A stretch of 35,477 nt of DNA from Acidobacteriota bacterium (lineage in GTDB: Bacteria > Acidobacteriota > Terriglobia > Versatilivoradales > Versatilivoraceae), in the NCBI GenBank assembly GCA_003224715.1, contig QHZP01000008.1, forward strand, positions 55,570 to 91,046. The letters are read 5' to 3'. The position numbers and the translations under genes are program-made. The number at the start of each line of letters is the position of its first letter. Position 1 is the first letter of the stretch. The notes under the pieces are model-generated. The model made no database searches and was not told the DNA's origin. It saw only the letters and a list, made by a program, of their open reading frames with translations. Of the stretch, positions 27,300-34,756 are shown in pieces.

Positions 27300-27950
27300 T
27301 TATCTTGACCTGGCGGTTCTCACCGCTTCGGAGAATTTCCTGGCATTCTCCGTAATCTTAGCGAATTCCTTAGCAGCGACCGCTTTCTTATCCACCAATT
27401 CCGAACCCACTGCGAGTGCCGCAGAACCAGCTGCGATGAACTCGGCTGCCGTATTCAGGTTCACCCCACCCGTAGGAATAAAGTCGATCTGGGGAAAGGG
27501 TCCCTTTAGAGCCCTTATATACTTTGGACCTCCGACATTGTCACAGGGAAAAACCTTTACAAAGTCCGCCCCAGCCTCCCAGGCCGTGATCACTTCAGTA
27601 GGAGTGAGGGCACCTGGAATAACCACTTTGCTGTAACGTTTACAGACTTCAATGGTGGATAGTCTCAGCGAGGGTGTCACGACAAATTCGGCTCCAGCCA
27701 GAATCACAGCTCGAGCTGTTTCCGCATCAAGCACAGTTCCCGCTCCCAGTAAGACATCGCTCCCATAACGCTCGGCGATTCTTTCAATCAGCCTGATGGC
27801 GCCGGGGACGGTCATAGTGATCTCCAGAACAGAAACTCCCCCACTCTTAATGGCTTCTACGATGGCACTCGCCTCGTCAGTTGATGAAGCTCGAACCACG
27901 GGAATAAGCCCTACTTCCATGATACGTTGGTTAATTTTCAGATTTGGCAT
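27300..27950 (-). CDS. eda: 2-dehydro-3-deoxy-phosphogluconate aldolase / 4-hydroxy-2-oxoglutarate aldolase
   Basis: GLIPVVRASSTDEASAIVEAIKSGGVSVLEITMTVPGAI, LLGAGTVLDAETARAVILAGAEFVVTPSL, PGALTPTEVITAWEAGADFVKVFPCDNVGGPKYIRALKGPFPQIDFIPTGGVNL. ATG at 27950 (MPNLKINQ) preferred over 27998, whose extension is repeat-derived. Confidence 0.93.
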   Translation of the reverse strand: MPNLKINQRIMEVGLIPVVRASSTDEASAIVEAIKSGGVSVLEITMTVPGAIRLIERIAERYGSDVLLGAGTVLDAETARAVILAGAEFVVTPSLRLSTIEVCKRYSKVVIPGALTPTEVITAWEAGADFVKVFPCDNVGGPKYIRALKGPFPQIDFIPTGGVNLNTAAEFIAAGSAALAVGSELVDKKAVAAKEFAKITENARKFSEAVRTARSR

Positions 27951-27966
27951 AGGCACCTTTTTGTCG

Positions 27967-28008
27967 CTCGTGACCAACAGTCGGCAGTCAGTTGTCACTT
28001 GTCACGAG
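27967..28008. repeat. Inverted repeat with iterated GTCA/AGTC core upstream of eda
   Basis: CTCGTGAC (27967-27974) and GTCACGAG (28001-28008), perfect 8-bp arms, spacer CAACAGTCGGCAGTCAGTTGTCACTT. Confidence 0.6.
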
Positions 28009-28064: not shown

Positions 28065-29050
28065 TTATCGCGCCACTCTCAAGCTGCCACCCTTCATGAC
28101 AGACTCCATCTCTGTCCTAGTGGCCCAATTTAAATCGCCTGGTATAGAGTGTTTGATGGCAGAATAAGCATTACCCATCTTGAGTGCCGTTTCCACATTT
28201 TGGGAAGTAAGATATCCGTAGATGAAGCCGCCACTGAAAGAGTCACCGGCTCCAACCCTATCCACAATTTCAACCATGTACGACTTGTCGCTATAAAATT
28301 TCCCGTCACTGTAGGCAATGGCTGTCCAGTTATTCTTCCAAACAGAAGGGTTTTCCCGTAAAGTAACGGTCACGATTTTGAATTTGAATTTTTCCTGAAG
28401 CTTTTGGGCCACAATTTTGAAGGAATCAGCCGAAACCTTGGCAAATTTCTCATCCTCTTCGTCATTGACCGCGGTAATCTTAAAAACTACTTTGGTATCT
28501 TCCTCAGTCGTAATGAGCACATCCACGTTTTCCATCATAGGTTCTTGACAGGCTTGTGCTTCTTTGTCGCTCCAGAGTTTACTGCGAAAATTGAGATCAT
28601 AACTGGTCAGCAAACCGGCTCTTTTGGCCGACTTCAAAGCTTCCGTGGTAACGGCCGCAGCTGACTGGCCTAAAGCCGGTGTGATCCCGCTGACATGAAA
28701 CCACTTCGCCCCTCTAAAAACTTTTTGCCAATCCACTTCGCCCACTGTGATTTGACTGATCGCAGACAAAGACCGATCGTAAAGCACAGAACTGGCACGA
28801 GGCGAAGCGCCAAATTCCATGAAGTAAAGACTCCCTGCTCCCGCGCCTTGTTTCGGATGAGCCTCCCCAGTGCGTTTTCGGGAAGCTTCGAAACCCAGGC
28901 CGACGACAATCCCAGACGGCTGACGGCCACCGCCACGTTTAGTTCCCCGCCTCCGACTTGAACATCCAGGGACGAAGTTTGTTCCAGCCGCTGGAAGCCG
29001 GGAGGAGAAAGTCTAATCATCGCTTCGCCAAAGGTAACAACCTCCGCCAT
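28065..29050 (-). pseudogene. kdgK: 2-keto-3-deoxygluconate kinase (PfkB family), reading frame interrupted
   Basis: N-terminal part ORF 28670-29050 (MAEVVTFGEAMIRLSPPGFQRLEQTSSLDVQVGGGELNVAVAVSRLG..NKAREQGV) and C-terminal part ORF 28065-28820 (EFGASPRASSVLYDRSLSAISQ..DRVGAGDSFSGGFIYG) are two frames of one PfkB gene, joined near 28820-28845. Confidence 0.85.
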
Positions 29051-33340: not shown

Positions 33341-34180
33341 CTACTTGTTATCATCCGTGCGAGGGACAAGGGTTTCAGAAGACAAGATGGCTTCATTTCT
33401 ATGTTTGAGCAAGTTGTAAACCTTAGCCAGCAACCCGGAACTTGCATAAACTGTAGCCAAGACCAGAAGAACCACCTGGGAATACAGATAGATCAGAGCG
33501 ACTAGCATCGCTAAAAGGTATACATTGATGTAAGACTTCCGATTTCGCAGGTCAATGTCCTTAAAACTGGGATAGCGGATGGTACTGATCATTAGGAACG
33601 CCAAGAAACCGATTAGGATATTCCAGAGGGCCCCGACAGACCAATGGTTAACTGGTTCTGGAGTGAAGTGGATAATCGCCGCAATCATTCCTGCGCCGGC
33701 GGGGATCGGCATACCGATAAAGTACTTCTTCAGGAGGGTTTGAGCCAAGGACGATTGCGGCTTGCTAGTTTGTATATTAAACCGGGCCAATCGCATGGTT
33801 CCGCAGATTAGGAAAGCGAAACAAACAATCCATCCGATCTGCTGAGCATGTTTGGCGTAAGGAGGAAATGTCGCGGTAATCGACTTCAGTCCCCAAATAT
33901 AGGCCAAGACGCTGGGTGCCAAACCGAAGGTGACAACATCTGCCAAGGAATCCATCTGAACTCCAAATTCACTGCAGGAATTGGTCAGGCGAGCGATCCT
34001 TCCATCCATCCCATCAAAAACAACCGCCAATCCTATGGCAATAGCGGCCAAATCAAACTCGCCTTTCATCGTGTTAATCAACGCGTAAAACCCGCAAAAA
34101 ATCGTTCCGATACTAAACAAGGTAGGAAGAATATAAATCCCACGACGAAATTTTCGATTTTTCTTGCCGTCCTCAGACAT
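33341..34180 (-). CDS. pssA: CDP-diacylglycerol-serine O-phosphatidyltransferase
   Basis: ORF 33341-34210; ATG at 34180 (MSEDGKKNRKFRRGIYILPTLFSIGTIFCGFYALI) preferred; CDP-alcohol phosphotransferase motif FDGMDGRIARLTNSCSEFGVQMDSLADVVTFGLAPSVLAY. Confidence 0.94.
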   Translation of the reverse strand: MSEDGKKNRKFRRGIYILPTLFSIGTIFCGFYALINTMKGEFDLAAIAIGLAVVFDGMDGRIARLTNSCSEFGVQMDSLADVVTFGLAPSVLAYIWGLKSITATFPPYAKHAQQIGWIVCFAFLICGTMRLARFNIQTSKPQSSLAQTLLKKYFIGMPIPAGAGMIAAIIHFTPEPVNHWSVGALWNILIGFLAFLMISTIRYPSFKDIDLRNRKSYINVYLLAMLVALIYLYSQVVLLVLATVYASSGLLAKVYNLLKHRNEAILSSETLVPRTDDNK

Positions 34181-34756
34181 GGCTGAACCTCCCGATGACG
34201 CTATTTCCACCCTTCACTTTATCGCCTAAAGTTACTTCCAGTCTTACATTCTCTGGCAAGAAAATATCTACCCGGGAGCCAAACTTGATCAAACCGATAC
34301 GCTCTCCCTTCCCGACATTGTCTCCTGCCTTTTTCCAGCAGACAATCCGCCTTGCCAGAATGCCAGCAATTTGACTGAATCTCACCTTTTGGCAGTCGTT
34401 GTCTCCACAGAGGCTCCATCGTCGAAGGCTACTTTAAACTTGCCTGGGACATAGCGAATGCTTTCAATTTTTCCTGCGATGGGAGAACGGTTGACATGTA
34501 CGTTGAAGATAGACAAAAAAATCGAGACCCGCGTGGTTCCGTCGGATTCGCCGGAAATCTTCACAACCTTTCCATCGGCGGGAGAAACCACCACGGCTTC
34601 ATCCGCGGGTATAGACCTGTCAGGGTCACGAAAAAAGAATCCGACAAACAGTGTCAAAGCAAGAAACAAAAATGCACCCCATTTAGGTCCGAACCAAAAA
34701 GAGAAAGCGGTACTCAGGGCGAGAGGAATCAAAAATGGGTAGGCTTCTTTGGCCAT
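34173..34756 (-). pseudogene. psd: Phosphatidylserine decarboxylase, reading frame interrupted
   Basis: N-terminal ORF 34382-34756 (FFFRDPDRSIPADEAVVVSPADGKVV..SIFLSIFNVHVNRSPIAGKIESIRYVPGKFKVAFDDGASVE) and C-terminal ORF 34173-34385 (RFSQIAGILARRIVCWKKAGDNVGKGERIGLIKFGSRVDIFLP, with the F-G-S processing motif) are two frames of one gene; stop overlaps the pssA start. Confidence 0.85.

Follow-up and report, generated by a model that had tools for sequence, protein, structure and literature searches.

Comparison of the broken kdgK gene with its counterpart in a closely related genome, together with the pattern of like lesions in other genes, leads us to infer, strongly although short of proof, that the break very probably arose as an artefact of scaffolding or local assembly. 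The broken gene lies in a 35,477-nucleotide stretch of acidobacterial DNA, referred to here as the window, which is part of a 91-kb contig (C144) of the draft soil metagenome-assembled genome (MAG) G000. This draft comprises 6.6 Mb in 806 contigs and is estimated to be 85% complete with 4.5% contamination. The features discussed are listed in Table 1.

Table 1. Coordinates of the kdgK pieces and of other genes located in the window
Feature	Position	Strand	Remarks
eda, KDPG/KHG aldolase	27300..27998	-	Intact, downstream of kdgK
kdgK C-terminal part, in the other frame, YFMEFGAS... to stop	28065..28828	-	Catalytic GAGDSF motif intact
kdgK junction	28828..28829	-	43 nt of G001 missing; window free of N's here
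kdgK N-terminal part, PfkB family 2-keto-3-deoxygluconate kinase	28829..29050	-	74 codons before the break
psd, phosphatidylserine decarboxylase	34176..34756	-	25 nt of G001 missing at the 34402 junction, without N's; frame-shifted

Structure of the kdgK break

On the minus strand between positions 29050 and 28065, the kdgK reading frame switches between ...RNKAREQGV and YFMEFGAS. The frame containing the KdgK N terminus begins with an ATG at 29050, is open to 28670, and reads ...NKAREQGVFTSWNLALRL past the break; the C-terminal part reads YFMEFGASPRASSVLYDR... in a different frame, within an open reading frame of 251 amino acids (28820..28065) that ends at the stop at 28065. In a profile search, the PfkB match in the window falls into two pieces in different frames (profile positions 1-80 and 124-289), whereas the orthologue in the related genome gives a match over the whole length in a single frame. 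The catalytic GAGDSF motif and the substrate-side GGxxN motif are both present in the window, one in each of the separate pieces, and no internal stop was found in the C-terminal part. The pattern of the break is not due to chance.

The sole same-genus genome compared is that of Acidobacteria gp11 AA57 (G001), itself a MAG and about 13% divergent from the window at the nucleotide level. Its kdgK, on contig C731 (QHZQ01000026.1), is intact and continuous, encodes 342 amino acids, and sits at the same locus in the same gene order; amino acid identity to the window is 97% for the N-terminal part and 89% for the C-terminal part. When the whole window is aligned to C731 at the nucleotide level, exactly 43 nt (about 14 residues) are absent at the junction, with no further indel in kdgK; the missing stretch encodes roughly DTSLIVWSKQGRAG in G001. 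The earlier note had described a gene split over two minus-strand frames by more than a one-base indel, with a linker of about a dozen residues gone; the frame and open reading frame analysis and the alignment to G001 agree with both points. It had also proposed a sister-genome comparison at this site and anticipated a close relative with about 40 extra nucleotides and one continuous frame, which is what G001, with its 43, provides.

The missing linker is a conserved element of these kinases. The distance from GGxxN to (M/V/L)EFG is 58 residues in 7/7 of the nearest relatives and 63 to 65 in more distant ones; a linker of that length or longer is present in every KdgK homologue inspected, and the KDG kinases of solved structure, 2afb and 1v19, align across it. 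The best match of the G001 orthologue is to a characterized KDG kinase, 2afb (E value of 1.8e-85), with an alignment over 334 residues that includes both the linker and GAGDSF, and, as in KdgK systems like that of 2afb, the gene adjoins eda. Matches to the NCBIfam KDG/KDGal kinase models fall below their cut-offs. The window copy differs from 2afb in its frame switch and in lacking 43 nt of the linker, a difference we judge to be an assembly fault.

Other PfkB genes and repeated sequences

No second kdgK was seen among the PfkB places classified in the 85%-complete draft. Besides kdgK, the PfkB genes that were examined match models for ribokinase, IolC-type, and heptose-7-phosphate kinases, and their resemblance to the C-terminal half of KdgK is weak at best (no more than 41 bits).

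The spacer between eda and kdgK in G001 holds one of the tens of copies that this genome has of a roughly 110-nt interspersed repeat (L128:3027-3138; G001:C731:32332-32433); the spacer in the window is about 97 nt shorter. Two more repeat families match L129:4263-4410 and L129:11945-12013.

Selection on the two halves of kdgK

Both halves of kdgK are under ordinary purifying selection, which fits an intact gene. The dN/dS values between the window and G001 are 0.077 for the N-terminal part and 0.068 for the C-terminal part, compared with 0.06 to 0.16 for the intact neighboring genes, and the nucleotide differences lie mostly at third codon positions (4, 1, and 10 at the first, second, and third positions of the N-terminal part, and 18, 12, and 86 in the C-terminal part). 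We found neither relaxed selection nor further disabling changes, with the single lesion being the only one, although a very recent loss of kdgK would not yet show relaxed selection.

Similar deletions in other genes of the draft genome

Because kdgK is dispensable, it cannot alone decide whether the deletion is real or artefactual, and other genes were checked for like lesions. The survey set 438 kb of G000 against 603 kb of G001, yielding about 200 kb of alignment and 227 orthologous open reading frames; it is not a random sample, as the contigs were chosen by their ABC-transporter matches. Six mid-size deletions free of N's were found in G000 among the 227 open reading frames, mostly on C144. 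The psd gene cut in the window is the sole psd of G000 and is matched as two pieces, and its C-terminal part has ordinary differences by codon position (5, 3, and 18). A sigma factor gene with regions 1.1 to 4 (G000 C459, L134:18084-19797) has a 26-nt N-free deletion relative to G001 that breaks its frame, and it is the sole match in the G000 draft to the sigma-70 region 1.1 domain, being of the primary sigma factor type. N-free deletions relative to G001 also occur in mreB on C144 (26 nt; L130:6346-7351), in a hydrolase gene (31 nt), and in a 450-aa open reading frame (65 nt).

A cell does not survive the loss of its primary sigma factor. Since this gene is indispensable and yet is cut, the class of lesions must be at least partly artefactual and cannot all be real; the sole psd and mreB, which bacteria likewise cannot do without, are also cut. 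The lengths of the gaps provide a further indication, in that among the N-free gaps of 10 nt or longer within open reading frames, G000 versus G001, 12 of 13 are not multiples of three. This would be expected of a process that is blind to reading frames; selection acting on real genes leaves the reverse pattern.

We note that a second mreB-like gene (C141:9950-10878), for which there is no G001 comparison, is also matched in two frames. A second PfkB gene of G000 (C342) was considered as a like lesion and set aside, its interruption being a scaffold gap of N's and not an N-free break.

Undersized runs of N's in both assemblies

The gap sizes estimated in these assemblies are systematically too small. 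In 13 of the 15 measurable cases from G000 and G001 combined, the run of N's is shorter than the corresponding sequence in the other genome. All five measurable runs in G000 are too short (deficits of 33, 43, 58, 11, and 23 nt; median, 33 nt), and in G001 eight of ten are too short and two of ten too long, with a median deficit of 19.5 nt. The deficits across both assemblies include 25, 25, 33, 40, 43, and 58 nt.

On C731 of G001, sppA (L120:3292) is interrupted by a run of 65 N's and an MFS transporter gene (L120:11886) by a run of 7 N's, each run falling 25 nt short of the intact sequence that the window has there.

Discussion

The most probable course of events is that two pieces of kdgK flanking a short unassembled gap were joined end to end, with 43 nt dropped and no N's added. 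A scaffolding or local-assembly step probably made this particular join; if gap sizes are underestimated by tens of bases, true gaps of 25 to 65 nt would be assigned lengths of zero or less, and their flanks would be joined directly with no N's between them. IDBA-UD was used for assembly in the study that produced G001 (PMC6784897), and the genome containing the window was likely made in the same way. Scaffold joins with local assembly errors have been described in short-read metagenomes, and it is suspected that they feature prominently among assemblies made with IDBA-UD (Genome Res. 2020; PMC7111523). As in those errors, unsupported joins and scaffolding gaps lead to incomplete or incorrect protein-coding genes; the lesions here differ in being seen as N-free deletions of 25 to 65 nt known from sequence comparison, whereas the described errors were defined by read support.

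The earlier note had left two choices, an inactivated kinase beside an intact eda or a wrong sequence, and the second is the better. The first would hold that a real and recent 43-bp deletion abolished the KDG kinase of a single Gp11 acidobacterial lineage, making kdgK a simple recent pseudogene and leaving eda to serve only the KDPG of the Entner-Doudoroff pathway or some other keto acid. Such a loss is biologically possible in a non-essential gene; a deletion that is not a multiple of three and removes the conserved linker would kill the enzyme, and eda is indeed intact. We nonetheless regard a real loss as unlikely: like lesions are present in the sole sigma-70 region 1.1 gene, the sole psd, and mreB; purifying selection on kdgK is undiminished, with no second lesion or internal stop; and the undersized runs of N's offer a non-biological route to the same deletion. 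Nor does the junction suggest how a deletion would have formed, as its ends in G001 share only about 1 nt, leaving little for slippage or recombination, and we rejected a deletion between direct repeats for this reason.

Still less probable is a mixture of strains, in which a minority population has the deletion and the consensus of the assembler followed that path. Soil MAGs are population composites and G000 has its estimated contamination of 4.5%, but a mixture leaves the sigma factor, psd, and mreB lesions and the undersized gaps unexplained. That kdgK functions as assembled, whether through ribosomal frameshifting or through separate translation of its two halves, is hardly credible, even though both parts are open and conserved and an ATG (28820) is present at the start of the C-terminal part; frameshifting would not supply the missing 14 residues, whose position and length are conserved in close relatives and which are aligned in 2afb and 1v19, and G001, of the same genus, has a single continuous frame. 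Programmed frameshifting was rejected on the same grounds, the 14 conserved residues also being absent.

An assembly origin of the kdgK break is of interest only as a caution about the draft, since N-free deletions cut about six conserved genes within the roughly 200 kb that aligned. Gene losses or "pseudogenes" reported from G000, and probably from sister MAGs made alike, are not credible without reads. The undersized gaps suggest a screen, in which mid-size, out-of-frame, N-free deletions in conserved genes flag assembly joins. A real kdgK pseudogene, if true, would be of little interest, and no claim of a loss of the KDG branch or of rewiring around eda is warranted from the window. Judged from the sequence comparisons, the kdgK break is almost certainly not a real feature of the organism, which most likely has a kdgK that is intact and continuous and lies upstream of eda, as is the case in its closest relative.
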